Part shown: in pieces, positions 7,010-29,736 of the stretch
Position numbering within the stretch: the first letter of the stretch is position 1
Layout of the letters: each line of letters starts with the position of its first letter
NCBI GenBank assembly: GCA_018816765.1
Contig: JAHIUX010000009.1
Location: 124,001-188,000, forward strand
Source: Bacteroidota bacterium
GTDB taxonomy: Bacteria > Bacteroidota > Bacteroidia > Bacteroidales > F082
Direction of reading: 5' to 3'
DNA: 64,000 bases
Program-made: the position numbers and the translations under genes
The notes under the pieces: model-generated
The model's database searches: none
Seen by the model: the letters and a program-made list of their open reading frames with translations, nothing else
Told to the model about the DNA's origin: nothing

Positions 7010-10000
7010 TTAATACTGAGATTCTCCCTTATCGTTAAGTGTAATCACAGAGATCCGCTTCTTTCCGTCCATCCTGACCATCAGGGGCTCTTTGAAGCGA
7101 ACATGCTTGTACCAGTTGGTCTCATTGATCAGTTCCTGGGAGGAGAGAAGTTCCCAGTTCACAAAACTCTTCGACAACTCAGGCTGCACTGTGAAATAAC
7201 CCACATTCATAGAGGTTACATTATGGAAAAAGTGCGACCCGGATGAGGCGTCAAGCGGAAAATCTTCGAGGCTGGTTTCAACAATCACCTTGGCATTTGA
7301 AATCTGAGGCCAGTTTACGGGTACCCCAATCCACTTGTCACGTGTGCCCCACCTTCCGGGCCCAATCAGCAGGTATGGTCTGTTTGCCTGGACCATTTCG
7401 TCGTTAAGCTGACTGATTTCGCGGGCCATATCTTCGGTAAACCGTTTGTCGAATTTGTCCTTGTCGATGTAAATCACATCGGCAATGGTGCTGATAAGGC
7501 CATTTCCCATGCCCTTTTCAGAGAAAAGCAGGATATCATCGGGCTTAATCTTATCCATGTCAACCACATAGTCTTCCGAACTCCCGATCAAGGGCTTAAT
7601 CTGTAACAGGTAAAATGAACAGCGGCCGTGTTCATCGCGTTCGAGGTCGAGCGCAAACTCAATTTCAATGGCTGTCCCAAGTGCCTCTTTCACCACATCA
7701 AGCACCACTTCAAGGGTTTGCGCCAAGGGGGTGTAGTTATACTTGAGCACATTGGCAAAGTTGATGATACGGGGACCTTGCTTGCTGATGCCGGGGTAAA
7801 TTGTATTGTTGTCGGGATTATACACCGAGGCACAATGCCTGAGTGTGCCGTGTTTCTCGGCAACGCTGATGTCGAGTTCTGACAAACCCGCCATATCGCC
7901 TTCGAGCAGGTTTGGCTCAGTCCGCTCGAGGTCTACTGCCAGAAAAGTCACCTGAGAGTTCTTATACTGATCTTTGGGCGAGTTGATGTCGAGGCCGGGA
8001 TATTTGGGTGAATAACGGTAGGCTTTATGTCCTTCAACAACATACTTACCCAGGCCGAGAGCCGAAATTGCAAAGCCCTCCTCAGGCTTCATATGGGCGA
8101 AAGGATAATAGTTGTAGGATTGCGCCACCCCGCTCATATGAGGGTAATAATATTTGTCATATTGACGGCCAACAAGTTCCTGTATCACAACGGCCATGCG
8201 TTCTTCCTCAATTTTATAGTGGATGGCATGAACGTAACCGCGTGCAACATCGGAATATACCGAGGCAAAAACAAGCTTAATCGCATCGGTGAGTTGCTGT
8301 AGCCTGACCTCAATATCTGGGTGGGAGTTTGGCAGGATGTAGGTTTCAAAAATACCTGCAAAAGGCTGTGAGAGGCTGTCTTCAAACAAGCCGGACGACC
8401 TGATGGCCAACGGTTTTGTTATCTGTGCCAGCAGAGCCTTCAGTCGCTTTACAAGGGTGGGCGTTAGTTTTCCCTGGACAAAAGCACGTTTTATGGTTTC
8501 GTAATCCGTTTCCTTCACTGCCAGTTCGTGCAGGTTATTCCGCTCGAGAAACAACTGAAATTCCTCAGTGCCCACAAGCGAGGTTTTTGGTGTCCGGATG
8601 TTAATATCGGGCACATGCTGCGAAAAATCGTAGTTATGAATCAAGGTGTTGATGAAAGCAAGGCCCCTGCCCTTTCCACCAAGCGAACCATCAGCCAGGC
8701 TGACGATGTTCTTTTCGTCGTTGATAGCCGATTCATCAAATGGAATGATTTTACCCACATTTTGTTCATTCCTGAACTGCTGAATCATCATGATCAGTTC
8801 CTCCCTGAGGTCGTCGGGGCTCTCATAATCAGATACTTTTTTGGGATTGATGATCTTAGCCACCCTGATTTCACCCCGCGCCATGAGCCACAGCGAAAAA
8901 TGGTCGCGGCGTGCGTGATAAAGCAAGGATTCAGCCGGTATGGTGCGCAAATTGGCTTCGAACTCTTTCAGCGTGCGGGCCTGGGCAATCTGACGGCCAA
9001 ACCTGTCGCGGTAAATAAAATTACCAAATCCGAGGTAGTGTGTGATAAAGCTCTGGAAATCCTGCGAAAGGGTTTCACTGTTTTTATCGATGAAGGTCGA
9101 TTTGTACCGATAGGCAATTTCTGCATTTTCCGGATCAGACGATTGTATAATTGTTGGCAATTCGCTGATCATGCCCTTGGCAAACCGCACCAGTTCCACC
9201 CCGGCGTTTTCGTCCTGCACCTCGTTACGGTCAAATTTCATATCGGTAATCAGGCACAGCATATATTCCTTATAGTCTTTCAGTATCTGGCAGGCTTCCT
9301 CGAAGGTGCTGGCCAGCAATATCTTTGGTCGTGCACGCATGCGCAACACCTTGTAGAGCTCATCGGTGCTTACGTCATCAATGATGCGTCGTGTCTGCTC
9401 CATCACAATCTTATACAGCATGGGCAGGTAACGCGAATAATATTTGGGCGAATCTTCAACAAGCAAAATCACCCTGACCAATCCCACCTTGGTATCGTTA
9501 ACCACATTGATGCGGTCTTCAACCATTTTAATCATCGAAAAAAACACATTCGAATCGCCGTTCCAGCTAAAGATACGGTCGATAGAAAGCGTGTTTTTAC
9601 TCACGTTCTGAAAGTATGCAATTTCGGCGTTGCTGTTGAGCAGGAAATAAATCGGGATGTAAGGAAACTCCTTTTTGATGCGCTTGCTGATGTCGACGGG
9701 TGTTTTCCTGTCAACACTGACCATGAAAATAATCAGGTCGAAATGTTTTGCCCTCAGCACCTCAAAGGTTTCCGAAACAGTAGTCACTCCGGTGATGCGG
9801 GGAACAGAGGTAAGGTTGAGCTGATGGTAATGGCCGAGCACATGTTCCGAAAAACGTCCTTCGCGTTCAATTGAATAGGCATCGTAAAGATTTGACACCA
9901 GCAAAATTTCCTTGACCTTAAATGTCATCAGGTCATGGTAAATATCACGGTCAGAGTTGTTTTTGTTCAGAAATTTCTGCAACAACTGCCGGCTATAACC

Positions 10001-10480
10001 CTGCACAGGTTGGTCCATCGACAGGTCTTGCCGCTTGCTTTTGCTTTCGCCAATATAGCTTTTTCCTTTCAGTGAGTTTAGGTAGCCGGTAATCATACTG
10101 GCCAGGTTCAGAAGCAGATCACGTTCTTCTTCTAGAAAAGGTCCTTCATCGCAGGTCGGAAATTCTTTGGAATAGCAGATTTCGATCACCCCTTTTTTTC
10201 CATCGATGGTTTCAAATTCCTGTACCTGCCTCCAGCGTGTAAGTTCAAAATTGGGCGAGAGAAAAACGACTTCATCATACATGATACGGGCCCCGGTAAA
10301 CTCAGGATACTGCCAGCCATCGGGCAATATCATAGAGATGTGCTTCAGAGTTTCGTCGGGTGATTTGTTTTCGCGGATAATTTGTGTTGTCCGGTTCAGG
10401 GTAGCCAGTTCCTTTAGTCGCTCAAGGTTTTCGGCCCTGAGTTGTTCAAATCTCCCGCCCAGATCGTTTGGTGAAGTCAT
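7010..10480 (-). CDS. GAF-like / double receiver / PEP-synthase-type ATP-grasp protein (paralogue A)
   Basis: A 1156-residue cytoplasmic protein. Residues 15-140 resemble a GAF sensor domain of the kind found in histidine kinases. Residues 190-325 look like a receiver fold without the phospho-Asp (FDLIIFMVSV). Residues 335-485 are a second receiver with the key residues: acidic pair Glu342-Asp343, Asp413 in ITDMKF, Ser447-448 and Lys466, interrupted by an insertion near 357-390. From about 595 a PPDK/PEP-synthase N-terminal ATP-binding domain follows (GGKGRGL 601-607, LAIRSSGLFEDS about 691-702, YLLQIKPL where PPDK enzymes have an Arg). No GG-His-x-A swivelling-domain motif or C-terminal PEP barrel is visible; instead there is a conserved tail with GPGRWGTRDKWIG and SSGSHFFHN. 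It is usually annotated as a PEP/pyruvate-binding protein. The reaction is unknown. Paralogue B lies at 26731-29736. Confidence 0.85.
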   Translation of the reverse strand: MTSPNDLGGRFEQLRAENLERLKELATLNRTTQIIRENKSPDETLKHISMILPDGWQYPEFTGARIMYDEVVFLSPNFELTRWRQVQEFETIDGKKGVIEICYSKEFPTCDEGPFLEEERDLLLNLASMITGYLNSLKGKSYIGESKSKRQDLSMDQPVQGYSRQLLQKFLNKNNSDRDIYHDLMTFKVKEILLVSNLYDAYSIEREGRFSEHVLGHYHQLNLTSVPRITGVTTVSETFEVLRAKHFDLIIFMVSVDRKTPVDISKRIKKEFPYIPIYFLLNSNAEIAYFQNVSKNTLSIDRIFSWNGDSNVFFSMIKMVEDRINVVNDTKVGLVRVILLVEDSPKYYSRYLPMLYKIVMEQTRRIIDDVSTDELYKVLRMRARPKILLASTFEEACQILKDYKEYMLCLITDMKFDRNEVQDENAGVELVRFAKGMISELPTIIQSSDPENAEIAYRYKSTFIDKNSETLSQDFQSFITHYLGFGNFIYRDRFGRQIAQARTLKEFEANLRTIPAESLLYHARRDHFSLWLMARGEIRVAKIINPKKVSDYESPDDLREELIMMIQQFRNEQNVGKIIPFDESAINDEKNIVSLADGSLGGKGRGLAFINTLIHNYDFSQHVPDINIRTPKTSLVGTEEFQLFLERNNLHELAVKETDYETIKRAFVQGKLTPTLVKRLKALLAQITKPLAIRSSGLFEDSLSQPFAGIFETYILPNSHPDIEVRLQQLTDAIKLVFASVYSDVARGYVHAIHYKIEEERMAVVIQELVGRQYDKYYYPHMSGVAQSYNYYPFAHMKPEEGFAISALGLGKYVVEGHKAYRYSPKYPGLDINSPKDQYKNSQVTFLAVDLERTEPNLLEGDMAGLSELDISVAEKHGTLRHCASVYNPDNNTIYPGISKQGPRIINFANVLKYNYTPLAQTLEVVLDVVKEALGTAIEIEFALDLERDEHGRCSFYLLQIKPLIGSSEDYVVDMDKIKPDDILLFSEKGMGNGLISTIADVIYIDKDKFDKRFTEDMAREISQLNDEMVQANRPYLLIGPGRWGTRDKWIGVPVNWPQISNAKVIVETSLEDFPLDASSGSHFFHNVTSMNVGYFTVQPELSKSFVNWELLSSQELINETNWYKHVRFKEPLMVRMDGKKRISVITLNDKGESQY

Positions 10481-10742: not shown

Positions 10743-11405
10743 ATGGATAAAATAAAGGTAGCCCTTGTTGATGAGCACCCGATCATGTGCGATGGCATAC
10801 AGAGCCTCCTGTCCGATGCCAACGACATCCAGGTTGTACACAGTTGTCGTACCACCACCGAGCTGATTCAACTGCTCTATCACGAGCCGGTGCATGTTGT
10901 CATCACCATTTTCTACACCCCCGACCCTGAAAACGTTGAACAGATCAGGCATTTATGCAACAAGCATTCGAAGGCAAAGGTGTTGGTTTTGTCGATGTAC
11001 CGGATTGAGAATTTTATCTTCAAGATGATCAAGGCAGGTGCCAAGGGGCATCTGACCAGTGACACAAACCGCAACGAGATGGTTGAGGCCATTTACACCC
11101 TGCGCAATGGCTATGATTTTTACGCAAAAACCATCACCAACCTGATTCTGCGGAATTACCTGAACGACGACAAAGAAATCGAAGCAAGGCAGGAAAGGGA
11201 AAAAAGCCTTTCGGCCCGGGAAATAGAAGTACTGAAGCTCTTTGCCCGCAGCTATACCAACAAGGAAATTGCTGACAGGCTGTTCATCAGCGTGAGAACC
11301 GTTGAATCGCACAAAAACAACATCATGCGTAAAATTAACCTGAAAACGACCGTTGACATGGTTAAATTTGCCATAAAAAATAATATTGTGGAGCTTGATT
11401 ATTAA
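10743..11405 (+). CDS. LuxR/NarL-type regulator with a degenerate receiver domain
   Basis: A 220-residue regulator. The C-terminal helix-turn-helix (about 155-212: SLSAREIEVLKLFARSYTNKEIADRL, then VRTVESHKNNIMRKINLK) is a textbook LuxR/GerE domain. The N-terminal receiver fold begins with IKVALVDEHPIMCDGI, so the acidic pair Asp10-Glu11 remains, but the position of the phospho-acceptor Asp is Ile56 (HVVITIFYTP) and the conserved Lys position is Ser106 (GHLTSD). It should therefore not work by ordinary aspartyl phosphorylation. It is divergent from the GAF/receiver/ATP-grasp gene and 18 bases upstream of a K+ channel, with which it probably shares a transcript. DNA binding is confident; the input signal is unknown. 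Confidence 0.88.
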   Translation: MDKIKVALVDEHPIMCDGIQSLLSDANDIQVVHSCRTTTELIQLLYHEPVHVVITIFYTPDPENVEQIRHLCNKHSKAKVLVLSMYRIENFIFKMIKAGAKGHLTSDTNRNEMVEAIYTLRNGYDFYAKTITNLILRNYLNDDKEIEARQEREKSLSAREIEVLKLFARSYTNKEIADRLFISVRTVESHKNNIMRKINLKTTVDMVKFAIKNNIVELDY

Positions 11406-11423: not shown

Positions 11424-12257
11424 ATGGACAATAACCAGGGTTCATTCAAATTAAAGGTTTATCGCGTCATCAGTGGGCTTGAAGGTAGCAGGATCAAGGT
11501 AAACCTTTTCGATCATTTTATTTCAACGCTTATCCTGTTGAATATTTTCGCGATCATCATGTCAACCTACCAGGCGTTCGCCTTAAAATATGAGGAAGCC
11601 CTGCACATCTTCGAAGTCGTTTCAGTTATCATCTTTAGTGTGGAGTATTTGTTGCGTCTGTGGACGGCTGACCTGCTATTTCCCAGCGCTACTCCCATTG
11701 GATCAAGATTCAGGTTTGCTTTCTCCACCCTTGGTCTTGTCGACTTGCTGGCCATACTTCCGTTCTACATTCCACTGTTTGCAAAACTTGACCTGAGATT
11801 TCTCAGGATCGTCAGGCTGATGCGCTTGTTTCGCCTGTTCAAACTCCGCAGGCATTCAGCTTCCCTGAAGCTCATCATGACGGTGTTGCGCGACGTGAAA
11901 GACGAGTTGGTTGTGACGGTGATGATGATCCTGATATTGATCATTACAACTTCTATCCTGATGTTTTATGTTGAGCACGAAGCCCAACCTGTGATGTTCG
12001 GCGACATCGGCGATTCGATCTGGTGGGCGGTAGCCACCCTCACAACCGTTGGCTATGGCGATGTGTATCCGATCACTGGCTTAGGACGTCTGCTTGGGGG
12101 AATCATAACCATCCTCGGTGTTGGCATTGTGGCCCTTCCGGCAGGGATGATCAGCTCTTCGTTCACCCGAATTATCCAGGAAAAAAAGGCCGCTGAGAAA
12201 GATTGCCCGAAAGAAAAAAAGGGAAATTATTGCCCGCATTGCGGAGAAAAATTGTAG
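11424..12257 (+). CDS. Voltage-gated-type potassium channel with C-terminal CxxC tail
   Basis: A 277-residue six-helix ion channel. The S4-like helix is Arg-rich (RFLRIVRLMRLFRLFKLRR, about 126-144), and the pore loop has the K+ selectivity filter TTVGYGDVYP near residue 211, followed by the inner helix LLGGIITILGVGIVALPAGM. It conducts K+ across the inner membrane. The cytoplasmic tail is Lys-rich and ends in CPKEKKGNYCPHCGEKL, a zinc-ribbon-like CPxCG. A single CxxC with one upstream Cys may bind a metal between subunits of the tetramer; this is inference. It is 18 bases after the atypical regulator. Confidence 0.92.
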   Translation: MDNNQGSFKLKVYRVISGLEGSRIKVNLFDHFISTLILLNIFAIIMSTYQAFALKYEEALHIFEVVSVIIFSVEYLLRLWTADLLFPSATPIGSRFRFAFSTLGLVDLLAILPFYIPLFAKLDLRFLRIVRLMRLFRLFKLRRHSASLKLIMTVLRDVKDELVVTVMMILILIITTSILMFYVEHEAQPVMFGDIGDSIWWAVATLTTVGYGDVYPITGLGRLLGGIITILGVGIVALPAGMISSSFTRIIQEKKAAEKDCPKEKKGNYCPHCGEKL

Positions 12258-12407: not shown

Positions 12408-13805
<1,398 letters not shown>

Positions 13806-19319: not shown

Positions 19320-20489
19320 CTACTTCACTTGCTTATAGGCTTCCTTTACGGCTTCATCAAGGCGTTCAGAAACTTCTTCCGTTGTTCCAGCCCCATCAAC
19401 TTCAAAAAACACGCTTTGTTTTTTATAATAGTCGATAACGGGCTTGGTTTTCTTTTCGTATTCTTCGAGCCTGTTCAGGATAAGTTCTGTTGTGGCATCA
19501 TAAGGCCGGCTTCTTTCCGTTTTTGCCCTGGTATTCAGGCGTTTGATGGCATCCAGAGTAGAAAGCTTGAGGTTAAGCATGCAGCTCACGCGGGTATCGA
19601 GGCGGCGCAGCAAGCCATCGAGGATATAGGCCTGAACGATGGTGCGCGGAAATCCTTTGAAAATGAATCCATGCGCTGAGGCGTTTTTCTCTATCTTACG
19701 CTCAATGAGTTTGATGGCAATTTCATCAGGCACAATCTCGCCTCTTTCCATATACGGTTTCGCGATGCGGCCAATCTCAGAATCATTGGCGATCTCCTGG
19801 CGAAGCATCTTACCGGTTGAAATATACACCAGGTTGTTCTTTCTGGCGAGTATTTCGCCCTGGGTTCCTTTACCCGATCCGGGCCTGCCGAGAACAACGA
19901 TATTGAAGTAATCCTGCGTAAATGTCTTGTCGATGGTCTGGCAAAGGTTTTTAAAAATGGCGTCTATTCCGCCGACCCCCAAAATGGGGAAATATTTTCC
20001 TTTTTCGCGGTAGAAATCAATTACAGGCTTGGTTTTGTTTTCATATTCCTGCAGCCTCACTTTGATTACTTCAAGGGTGTCATCGGCGCGACCACTTGTC
20101 TTCGACCGTTCGAGCATACGGTTCATCAGCTCATCGTTAGGCACCTCGAGGCTCAGCATGCAGGTGAGGCTGGTGTTCATCTTCAACAGCAAGCCATCAA
20201 GGATGTATGCCTGGACAATGGTTCGCGGAAAGCCATCAAACAAAATTCCCCGGCTTTCGAGGTTCATGGTGACTTTCTTCTCGATGATCTGAACAATGAT
20301 TTCGTCTGGAACAAGTCCGCCTTTATCGATAATCGCCTTTGCTTCGACGCCCAATTGCGTATTTTGTGCAATTTCTTCACGCAACATATCCCCGGTTGAA
20401 ATGTAGGTGAGGTTATACTTCTCGAGCAGCAACTTCGATTGTGTTCCCTTTCCTGCGCCGGGAGGGCCAAATAATGCAATGTTAAGCAT
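19320..20489 (-). CDS. adk: Tandem two-domain adenylate kinase, second domain altered
   Basis: A 389-residue protein made of two adenylate kinase domains in a row, against about 190-215 residues for one enzyme. Domain 1 (1-185) is complete: P-loop GPPGAGKGT 8-16, STGDMLR with Asp34, FDGFPRT with Asp85 and Arg89, and a short LID with GRADD (134-137); it should make ADP from ATP and AMP. Domain 2 (about 195-389) keeps the P-loop GRPGSGKGT (201-209) and PRTIVQAYILDGLL, identical to domain 1, but Asp34 is replaced by Lys227, Asp85 by Lys278, and GRADD by SRPYDA. Domain 2 therefore probably lacks normal activity. It follows hpt by 17 bases; in Flavobacteriia hpt and adk are often fused. Confidence 0.93.
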   Translation of the reverse strand: MLNIALFGPPGAGKGTQSKLLLEKYNLTYISTGDMLREEIAQNTQLGVEAKAIIDKGGLVPDEIIVQIIEKKVTMNLESRGILFDGFPRTIVQAYILDGLLLKMNTSLTCMLSLEVPNDELMNRMLERSKTSGRADDTLEVIKVRLQEYENKTKPVIDFYREKGKYFPILGVGGIDAIFKNLCQTIDKTFTQDYFNIVVLGRPGSGKGTQGEILARKNNLVYISTGKMLRQEIANDSEIGRIAKPYMERGEIVPDEIAIKLIERKIEKNASAHGFIFKGFPRTIVQAYILDGLLRRLDTRVSCMLNLKLSTLDAIKRLNTRAKTERSRPYDATTELILNRLEEYEKKTKPVIDYYKKQSVFFEVDGAGTTEEVSERLDEAVKEAYKQVK

Positions 20490-26730: not shown

Positions 26731-29700
26731 TTATTTTGCCTTGACTGTAATGGTGAGCTTTTCTCCTTCCTTCATAACGACGCCTTTGTTTTTTCTGCCA
26801 TCGATAAGGATCATCAGTTCCTCTGCGAAACGAATGTGCCTGACGAATTGGTCATCGTAAACAACCTCTTGTTTACCAAGATATTCCAGGTCGTAAAATC
26901 CATCGTTTAAAAAGGGGTTAATGGTAAAATAACCCACGCCAAAAGAGGTCAGGTTTTGAAAAAAGTGTGTCCCCTGGCTCGGATCAATGCGGTAATGTTC
27001 CAACCCCGACTCTACAATGATTCTGGCGGCTGAAATCTGTGGCCATTTCACAGGGATGCCCAGCCATGGGTCGCTTGATCCCCATCTACCGGGGCCAACA
27101 AGGACATAATTTTTATCCTTATCCAGAAATGTTTTGTTAATGCCGCCGACGAGTTCAGCGATTTCGCGGGTGCGGGCCGGATCAAAATGCTCGGGTTTCA
27201 CGTACACAAAATCGCGGATTCCTTTGATAATTCCATTGCCCAGGGCGTGATCGGTGGTGATGATGGTTTTTTCCTTCTGCACACCTTCAATATCAAAGTC
27301 GACGGAATCGGTACTGCTTACAATTGGCCTGATTTGCAACACATAAAACACCTGGTGCACGTCTTTTGGTTTGTTGAGTTCGATCGCAAACTCAATCTCA
27401 ATGGGTTTACCCATTTCACGCTGTCCAATCTCAAGCACGTCCTCCACAATTTTTGCCAGCGGGAAAGTGTTGTGTTTTAAAATATTTGAAAATGTAACGA
27501 TTTTCTTTCCATCGGGCTGATACCCATCCCGAAGGATGTCGTTCTGGAAGTCGTAAGTTGAACAAACATATTTGATAGCGCCGTCCTTGTCGGCCTCTGT
27601 AAGCCTGAGCTGGAGCAGGTTGGCTGCATCATCAACATTGGGTTGGAAGCTGTTCGGATCGAGGTTCAGGGCATAAAAGTGTTTTTGGGTTTCACGCAGC
27701 GCCATTTCAGGCGAACTGACCTGAAGCACTTTTTGAGGGTATTTGGGTGAAAACCGCAGTGATTGTCCCCCGTCGACAATGTACTTTCCCAGGCCGAGTG
27801 CAATATTGGCAATGCCGTCTTCAGGCTTTTCGGGAGGAATGGGGTAAAAGTTGATGGAACGTGCAACACCTGAACAAGCCGGGTAATACCTGTGTCCATA
27901 GGATTTGCCGCAGACTTCCTGCATCACAATGGCCATTTTCTCCTCATCGATCACGTTCTTTGTGGCCGTCATATAGGCTTTGCTGTCCTTGTAGAATGCA
28001 GATGCATAAACGCTTTTAATGGCATTGCTCACCATTTTGATCATCAGGCGCTCGTCGTTTTCAACTACCGGAATCATATAGGTACTGTAAATACCAGCAA
28101 ATGGCTGATAATGTGAGTCTTCGAGCATACTCGACGACCTAACGGCAAGCGGGTTTTTGATTACAGAAATCAGCGTATATAAATCTTCGTGAATCCTGAA
28201 GGGAAGTCTGGCTTCTACAAACTGTTTCAGAATTTCGGCATCGCTCAGGTCATCGGCAAGAGCCACCTGATAAAGGTCGTTCTCTTCCATGAAATCATCA
28301 AAAACATCGGTGCACAACACCACCGTGCGCGGGATGGCGATTGTTACTTTCGGGTATTTGTCATGGAGCTTGTTGCGCTTGATCAGTGAGTCGAGAAATG
28401 CCAGTCCACGGGCTTTGCCGCCAATTGATCCATCACCGATGCGGGTGAATGAAAGGTATTCATCGAAGCTTTCGCGGTTGAATTCTGCAATGACACCACG
28501 GGCTTTGTTCAGCCTGAACTGTGCAATTCCGTCAAAGACAAAGCGTTTTATCTCATCACAATCCTGGAAATCCTCAGGTGAAAACAGCTTGAACATTTCA
28601 GCGAGCGGAAACAATGCCCTGGCTCTGAGCCATTTCGAAATGTGATTGCGTTCGATGTGGTATTGAAGCGATTCATTGGGCACCTGGAAAATTTTCTCCT
28701 GCAGGGTTTTGAGATCTGTTGCCCGCATCACCTCCTGTCCGCTGGTAGGATCTTTAAACACAAAATCACCGAAAGCGAAGTACTCTTTGATGAAATTCCT
28801 CAGTTCGATGGAGAGTGTTTTTGAGTTTTTGTTGATAAAGCCAACCTTGATCTGCTTTGCAATCTCCTCATTTTCTGACTCTGACGATTGCAACAGCATG
28901 GGCATATACCTGTCGTTCTTTTTCACAACCTGGCAAAGCCGTACACCAGCCTGTGGATCAATCTTTCCCTCGCGTTCATAGGTGATGTCGGAAATGATGC
29001 CGAGGAGGTTTTGCTTGTATTTTTTGTAAAAATCGATGGCCTCTTCGTACGTTGTTGCCAGGAGGATTTTCGGACGGCCGCGCATCCGCAGCATCTTCTG
29101 GTGTTCGTTAAGACCCTCGGTCATGAACGACTTCGACTGCTTGAAAATGATCTTGTAAATGTTGGGCAGGTAACTGCTGTAGAAACGAATGGAATCTTCG
29201 ACCAGGATTATGCACTGCACGCCAATTTCCCTGATGTCGGAATCGGCATTCATCTTGTCCTCAATCAGTTTAATGATGGCAAGCAGGATATCAGCATTGC
29301 CAAGCCAGTTGAAGACATAATCAACGGCCTTGAGTTCCTTGCGGTCGATTTTCAGGTTAAGCTCACGCGAAAAGGGTGCCAGAACAACAATTGGTATACT
29401 GGGATACCTTGATTTGAATGCTTCGGCCAACACGTAGGTTTCTTTGTCTTCGGCACTGAGCATGATAATGATGAGGTCGATCTTTTCCTCGGCTAAAAAA
29501 TCATAGGCTTCCTTTTCGGAAGTGGCAAGCAGAAAACTCGGCGGATAACGCAGGTTTAACGAAACATATTCGTTGAATATCTGTTCATCAATCCTGCCAT
29601 CATCCTCAAGCATGAACGCGTCATATACTGACGACATCAGTAACACATGGTAAATCCTCTTTTTCATCAGGTTGGTAAAAGAGGTATCATTGAAACTAAA

Positions 29701-29736
29701 CTTACGGTTTAGCAGGTCGAAGCGTGTTGGTGCCAT
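26731..29736 (-). CDS. Double receiver / PEP-synthase-type ATP-grasp protein (paralogue B)
   Basis: A 1001-residue protein collinear with paralogue A (7010-10480) but without its N-terminal GAF-like domain. Residues 25-160 form a degenerate receiver (IDLIIIMLSAED). Residues 172-325 form a receiver with intact Glu180-Asp181, Asp250 (GIISDITYE), Ser282-284 region and Lys303, and the same insertion with the motif LRMRGRPKILLATT. The ATP-binding part has GGKARGL 439-445, AVRSSSMLEDSHYQPFAGIYSTY and FYVLQIRPI, where the Arg expected of PPDK-type enzymes is kept. No swivelling phosphohistidine or PEP-barrel domain is visible; the tail has GPGRWGSSDPWLG and SQGTHFFQN. It has its own 5' region with TAGATTTG (29776-29783, minus strand) as a candidate -7 element. 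Function unknown. Confidence 0.87.
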   Translation of the reverse strand: MAPTRFDLLNRKFSFNDTSFTNLMKKRIYHVLLMSSVYDAFMLEDDGRIDEQIFNEYVSLNLRYPPSFLLATSEKEAYDFLAEEKIDLIIIMLSAEDKETYVLAEAFKSRYPSIPIVVLAPFSRELNLKIDRKELKAVDYVFNWLGNADILLAIIKLIEDKMNADSDIREIGVQCIILVEDSIRFYSSYLPNIYKIIFKQSKSFMTEGLNEHQKMLRMRGRPKILLATTYEEAIDFYKKYKQNLLGIISDITYEREGKIDPQAGVRLCQVVKKNDRYMPMLLQSSESENEEIAKQIKVGFINKNSKTLSIELRNFIKEYFAFGDFVFKDPTSGQEVMRATDLKTLQEKIFQVPNESLQYHIERNHISKWLRARALFPLAEMFKLFSPEDFQDCDEIKRFVFDGIAQFRLNKARGVIAEFNRESFDEYLSFTRIGDGSIGGKARGLAFLDSLIKRNKLHDKYPKVTIAIPRTVVLCTDVFDDFMEENDLYQVALADDLSDAEILKQFVEARLPFRIHEDLYTLISVIKNPLAVRSSSMLEDSHYQPFAGIYSTYMIPVVENDERLMIKMVSNAIKSVYASAFYKDSKAYMTATKNVIDEEKMAIVMQEVCGKSYGHRYYPACSGVARSINFYPIPPEKPEDGIANIALGLGKYIVDGGQSLRFSPKYPQKVLQVSSPEMALRETQKHFYALNLDPNSFQPNVDDAANLLQLRLTEADKDGAIKYVCSTYDFQNDILRDGYQPDGKKIVTFSNILKHNTFPLAKIVEDVLEIGQREMGKPIEIEFAIELNKPKDVHQVFYVLQIRPIVSSTDSVDFDIEGVQKEKTIITTDHALGNGIIKGIRDFVYVKPEHFDPARTREIAELVGGINKTFLDKDKNYVLVGPGRWGSSDPWLGIPVKWPQISAARIIVESGLEHYRIDPSQGTHFFQNLTSFGVGYFTINPFLNDGFYDLEYLGKQEVVYDDQFVRHIRFAEELMILIDGRKNKGVVMKEGEKLTITVKAK

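Follow-up and report, generated by a model that had tools for sequence, protein, structure and literature searches.

A receiver-linked ATP-grasp protein of Bacteroidota with an undescribed C-terminal domain, encoded near glutamate dehydrogenase

The locus

The window, by which we mean the whole 64,000-nt stretch of DNA that was analysed, carries at positions 7010–10480 on the minus strand an intact ORF of 1156 aa with no internal stop (referred to as the target), in which a sensor-like N-terminal domain is followed by two receivers (REC), an ATP-grasp domain and a C-terminal tail. Two kb away and divergent from it lies the gene of an NADP-type glutamate dehydrogenase (GDH; 12450–13805, plus strand), matching PF00208 (E = 2.3e-92) and PF02812 (E = 1e-51), and GDH is a neighbour of the target in related loci too. 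The interval is taken up by a LuxR-type regulator (10743–11405, plus strand; PF00196, E = 4.9e-19; PF00072, E = 2.4e-11), orthologs of which adjoin the target in 16 loci, and by an ion-channel-like gene (11424–12257, plus strand) with the potassium selectivity filter TTVGYGD, no homolog of which is labelled in the related loci examined. Upon alignment, the receiver of the LuxR-type regulator was found to have Ile where the phospho-Asp is expected and Ser instead of the conserved Lys; the regulators of module loci L072 and L073 keep the canonical phospho-Asp.

Further along, at 26731–29736 on the minus strand and 13 kb from the GDH gene, a paralog of 1001 aa has the same REC-REC-ATP-grasp-tail order without the N-terminal sensor (PF01326, E = 2.9e-40) and is 37% identical to the target over residues 171–1147. 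The genome has two copies of the family, both within the window. For the target itself, the coordinates, strand, length and named residues in the first-pass annotation were found correct by ORF reading and alignment; the paralog and the GDH gene 2 kb off had gone unremarked there. Also in the window, a 389-aa ORF (19320–20489, minus strand) reads as a head-to-tail fusion of two adenylate kinases. At G000:C22:35445–35690 and in most genomes of the same family, PF00391 occurs in an ORF of about 1387 aa; PPDK has about 920 aa.

Receivers and ATP-grasp core

The N-terminal domain (residues about 13–143; 10052–10444, minus strand) is modelled by AlphaFold2 (AF2) as helix-strand-helix, with pLDDT mostly 70–90, and is missing from most other relatives, which start at about residue 165–180. 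Earlier labelled GAF-like, it has no Pfam GAF match and resembles only sensor- and PAS-annotated proteins, such as a PAS-annotated one from Halobaculum with 32% identity.

Receiver 1 (residues about 188–333; 9482–9919, minus strand) is degenerate, with no acid pair and with M253 in place of the phospho-Asp, a position that is M, T or W across the aligned relatives. Receiver 2 (residues about 336–484; 9029–9475, minus strand) is intact, and its residues E342 (82/82 relatives), D343 (80/82), D413 (82/82), S447 (82/82) and K466 (82/82) are conserved. The first-pass annotation had described one degenerate and one intact receiver, with Glu342-Asp343, Asp413 and Lys466 in the latter, and the alignment of relatives bears this out while adding S447. 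The set expected of a response regulator (acid pair, phospho-Asp, Ser/Thr and Lys) is thus complete in receiver 2 and broken in receiver 1 by M253. The Pfam receiver match in the target is sub-threshold, and Foldseek matched receiver 2 both to PleD and to single REC structures. A mostly helical linker follows (residues about 485–590; 8711–9028, minus strand), consisting of AF2 helices with a weak similarity to DUF5752 (PF19027; residues 500–566, E = 0.0067, below the cut-off).

Residues 599–975 (7556–8686, minus strand) form an ATP-grasp domain of the PPDK_N type (PF01326, E = 1.9e-33). In a Foldseek search of the PDB with the full AF2 model (35 sequences; mean pLDDT 77.6), the top match was the ATP-grasp domain of rifampin phosphotransferase 5hv3 (E = 4.6e-10), followed by the tandem-receiver protein PleD; the PPDK/PEP-synthase ATP-binding domain claimed earlier is thereby confirmed by Pfam and by structure. 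Five residues of this core, K603, R694, E939, E941 and Q960, are invariant in 95/95 sequences, and we take them to be the counterparts of K22, R92, D321, E323 and Q335 of Clostridium PPDK, an equivalence drawn from inspection of motifs and from a profile alignment of low confidence.

No Pfam match to the PEP/pyruvate barrel PF02896 was found in the target, and past the PPDK_N match only about 181 residues remain, not the about 300 that had been claimed. The reported lack of both PF00391 and PF02896 was reproduced with Pfam, and for PF00391 also by profile comparison, so that a receiver joined to an ATP-grasp domain without the barrel, as first proposed, agrees with Pfam as well as with AF2 and Foldseek; an acceptor other than pyruvate is likely. 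The target is not a member of the whole-protein rifampin phosphotransferase model NF041857 of NCBIfam (18.1 bits against a cut-off of 999), and Pfam detected neither the carbohydrate-binding nor the His domain of glucan water dikinase in it. Judged from sequence, the target is a two-component output protein that combines an intact receiver, a PPDK/PEP-synthase-type ATP-grasp domain and an undescribed tail.

The C-terminal tail

The tail (residues about 976–1148; 7037–7555, minus strand) yields a confident AF2 model. Modelled on its own from 40 sequences, it reached a pLDDT of 86 and a pTM of 0.85, and a Foldseek search of this fold against the PDB and BFVD (a viral structure library) returned nothing at E ≤ 0.001 and no PPDK-like fold among the top 50. 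Likewise, hmmsearch found no sequence relatives of the tail in the PDB, Pfam gave no meaningful match (PF00391 included) for 27 diverse tails at E up to 10, and hhalign profile comparison with PPDK swivelling domains gave a probability below 1%. A match of the C-terminal residues to a swivelling-His or PEP-barrel domain, named beforehand as grounds for rejecting the original reading, was sought and not found by Pfam, profiles, PDB or Foldseek. As a separate matter, a direct likening of SSGSHFFHN to GGMTSHAAV, which would make the tail an obvious swivelling-His domain, was rejected as unsupported by hhalign, PDB hmmsearch, Pfam and Foldseek.

The 27 tails come from three subfamilies and are 22–52% identical to that of the target, with G-x-GRWG, E1068 and S-x-G-[ST]-H1083-F-F invariant throughout. 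His1083 (codon 7232–7234, minus strand) is invariant in 95/95 sequences as well as in the 27 diverse rows, which marks it as a candidate phospho-acceptor. It begins a helix (1082–1089 in the full model, 122–130 in the tail model) that in the tail model comes after a core strand. In swivelling domains the catalytic His occupies the corresponding position, and the succession of strands and helices would suit such a fold, although in the models this is suggestive only. No relation between the tail and any known phosphohistidine domain was detected, and we put H1083 forward as a tentative phosphocarrier from its invariance and modelled position.

That the tail is a very diverged swivelling domain is possible from the models, and one could accordingly picture a diverged PEP-synthase-like dikinase in which the phosphorylated His of an unrecognisable swivelling domain passes its phosphate to D413 of the same protein or to a different response regulator, and not to GDH. 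The modelled strand/helix order of the tail, with a His at a helix start after a core strand, parallels that of the PPDK swivelling domain, and an ATP-grasp domain followed by a His domain is the domain order of PPDK. However, the hhalign probability, the lack of a PPDK-like fold among the top 50 Foldseek matches and the absence of PF00391 from all 27 members speak against such a dikinase, which would moreover leave the pairing with GDH unexplained, and we regard it as quite improbable.

Distribution and sibling forms

With the paralog as query, the family was found in 171/198 Bacteroidales genomes, in line with the earlier expectation that it is common in Bacteroidota. Of 395 evenly sampled Bacteroidota genomes searched with the target, at least 70 had it; mostly two candidates were scored per genome, which makes the counts lower bounds. 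In most of 40 Bacteroidales/Bacteroidota loci, full-length identity to the target was 62–88%. The loss of two of the three PEP-synthase domains could at first sight point to a decayed, functionless PEP synthase that became fused to receivers by chance. Since the active-site residues are invariant (95/95) and the family is conserved across these 171/198 genomes, a pseudogene or decayed enzyme is refuted, and its probability is negligible.

Two sibling forms share the ATP-grasp domain and tail. The first is receiver-less and about 580 aa long; the second, of about 1060 aa, has a sensor-like N-terminus, the ATP-grasp domain and the same tail, and ends in a Pol-beta nucleotidyltransferase (PF01909/PF18765), the active-site motif of which (G[ST]-x(n)-DIDL) is present in 6/7 examined. 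Proteins of this second form lie near or adjoining NAD-type GDH (L079:1295–4474, L077:2805–5987 and L080:7282–10458), and the form is possibly a system for nucleotidylylation of GDH.

Pairing with glutamate dehydrogenase

Neighbour clustering of 18 relatives placed GDH by almost all of them; a histidine kinase and a LuxR-type regulator were often there too. The distance to GDH was then taken from PF00208 matches in 70 genomes, with subfamilies assigned by bit score. Receiver-bearing relatives were found within 5 kb of GDH in 56/66 cases (54 Bacteroidota genomes), against a chance expectation of about 0.8/66; 52/66 were no more than 1.5 kb from it, and 50 shared its strand. The receiver-less form (16/18) and the nucleotidyltransferase form (11/17) were also within 5 kb of GDH. 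Specifically, the receiver form pairs with NADP-type GDH and the other two mainly with the NAD type, the latter on few cases.

Some genomes have two tandem GDH-controller modules, which in several are separated by a histidine kinase and a response regulator, and in the four two-module genomes each controller type kept its own GDH type in 6/6 comparisons. Controller and GDH distances are correlated (0.80 over 38 pairs), which partly reflects shared species history. The pairing persists through same-strand, divergent and variable-distance arrangements; in Parabacteroides distasonis, for example, the annotated gdhA is directly divergent from the family copy WP_041525632.1. Among sensor-bearing orthologs (n = 38), GDH was at most 2 kb away in 22 and further in 2, while the fetched stretch contained no GDH for 14/38, several of these stretches being short. 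In 30 Bacteroidales genomes chosen by hand, at least 11 had the link within 5 kb, in several arrangements. Compared with the 56/66 seen phylum-wide, this indicates a strong GDH link at the level of the phylum and a looser one inside Bacteroidales.

Gene copy number follows the family as well, with zero or one NADP-type GDH in 20/20 sampled Bacteroidales without the family and two or more in 23/30 with it (p = 2e-8), an association confounded by the often smaller size of genomes without the family. Taken from gene order and copy number, a functional link between the target family and GDH is very probable.

Proposed function

Starting from an anatomy and a GDH link that can be read from the DNA, we infer gating, catalysis, a phosphohistidine and a substrate as follows. 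A histidine kinase or phosphodonor would phosphorylate D413, and this would shift the packing of the receivers on the ATP-grasp core. The core would then move phosphate from ATP, probably via H1083, onto GDH or a GDH regulator, with the H1083 tail as the natural candidate for phosphate carriage or substrate docking. In the outcome, ammonia assimilation or glutamate breakdown would be set to the nitrogen and energy state. To this whole reading, in which the target is a receiver-gated, ATP-dependent controller of GDH, we give an even chance. As to its parts, it is somewhat probable that the core catalyses an ATP-dependent step instead of merely sensing ATP, and GDH itself could be the modified substrate, to which we give a little less than even weight.

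The target might also be a non-catalytic regulator, with the ATP-grasp domain as adenylate sensor in a receiver-switched allosteric inhibitor or activator that binds GDH, much as GarA and OdhI act on mycobacterial and corynebacterial GDH. The GDH pairing and the lack of a recognisable acceptor-substrate domain in the target would fit such a protein. However, no catalytic-type residue of the nucleotide site varies, which is beyond the need of a mere sensor, and GRWG, E1068 and S-x-G-[ST]-H-F-F are kept in three subfamilies, making a purely allosteric role unlikely.

Similarly unlikely in our estimate is a metabolic enzyme acting on a small molecule of the glutamate/2-oxoglutarate/ammonia node, which would hand phosphate to a small acceptor and have GDH as a pathway neighbour only. 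The known PPDK_N enzymes (PEP synthase, rifampin phosphotransferase and prodigiosin ligase) do use small molecules, and some orthologous loci have genes like FNR-type oxidoreductase subunits; yet the attached receivers and sensor, and the close relative fused to a Pol-beta nucleotidyltransferase, look like regulation, and no substrate-binding domain was recognised in the target. In one subgroup (loci L020, L027, L028 and L029; clusters c9 and c10), the genes downstream of the target read as oxidoreductase subunits of the zinc-ribbon and FNR types. They may encode an NADH/ferredoxin:NADP transhydrogenase, in keeping with a link to NADP-dependent GDH.

The controller reading can be sharpened into that of a receiver-gated protein dikinase, in which PPDK-type chemistry and a new H1083 phosphocarrier domain would reversibly modify GDH while the nucleotidyltransferase sibling acts on NAD-type GDH; this is a speculative extension that we hold to be rather doubtful. 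Phosphohistidine has reportedly been seen on E. coli GDH. Reversible in vivo inactivation of GDH is likewise said to occur in Bacteroides fragilis; a full-text search of open-licence literature returned no report of it. We know of no dikinase-type enzyme that acts on a protein, and the target would be the first if it phosphorylates GDH.

In the human gut Bacteroidota are the dominant bacteria, with a metabolism in which the assimilation of ammonia by GDH is central. A near-universal Bacteroidales signalling protein paired with GDH genes is a concrete candidate for control of this enzyme, and if GDH is phosphorylated by the target, response regulators would gain an enzymatic output of a new kind.

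Comparison with known systems

The combination of receiver and PPDK domain, first taken to be undescribed, is already catalogued without a function by Galperin et al. (2018; PMC5847659) as REC-PPDK ("Bacteroides-like"), with occurrences in Bacteroides and Heimdallarchaeota. These REC-PPDK response regulators have the same domain combination as the target and presumably belong to the same family; the part of PMC5847659 that deals with them lists architecture only, with nothing on the tail domain, on GDH or on function. The earlier statement that no function had been assigned held up in a full-text search of open-licence papers, which found none with a function of the family, a description of the tail or an association with GDH (PMC10197588 and PMC9491525 are not relevant to the function of the target family). 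Within that literature, what is new here is the undescribed tail domain and the GDH partnership, in a protein with an unusual enzymatic response-regulator output.

With PPDK and PEP synthase (PF01326, PF00391 and PF02896), the target shares the PPDK_N ATP-grasp domain, including its nucleotide-site lysine, arginine and acidic residues, but it lacks the PEP/pyruvate barrel and a recognisable swivelling-His domain and has receivers in front. Rifampin phosphotransferase 5hv3 is the closest solved fold for the ATP-grasp domain and has a non-pyruvate acceptor, as is likely for the target; in contrast to it, the target has neither a rifampin-binding domain nor a recognised His domain. PleD (REC-REC-GGDEF), the second structural match, likewise has two tandem receivers before an enzyme. 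In PleD, however, the first receiver is the phosphorylated one, whereas in the target only the second has a phospho-Asp, and the output is an ATP-grasp domain.

With the nucleotidyltransferases GlnE and GlnD, which act on glutamine synthetase and PII, the shared idea is covalent control of an enzyme of nitrogen assimilation. The 1060-aa sibling has a Pol-beta nucleotidyltransferase domain and adjoins NAD-type GDH, whereas the target itself lacks a nucleotidyltransferase and has GDH as its partner. Should the protein-dikinase reading be true, Bacteroidota would have a GDH control circuit that parallels the control of glutamine synthetase by GlnD and GlnE.
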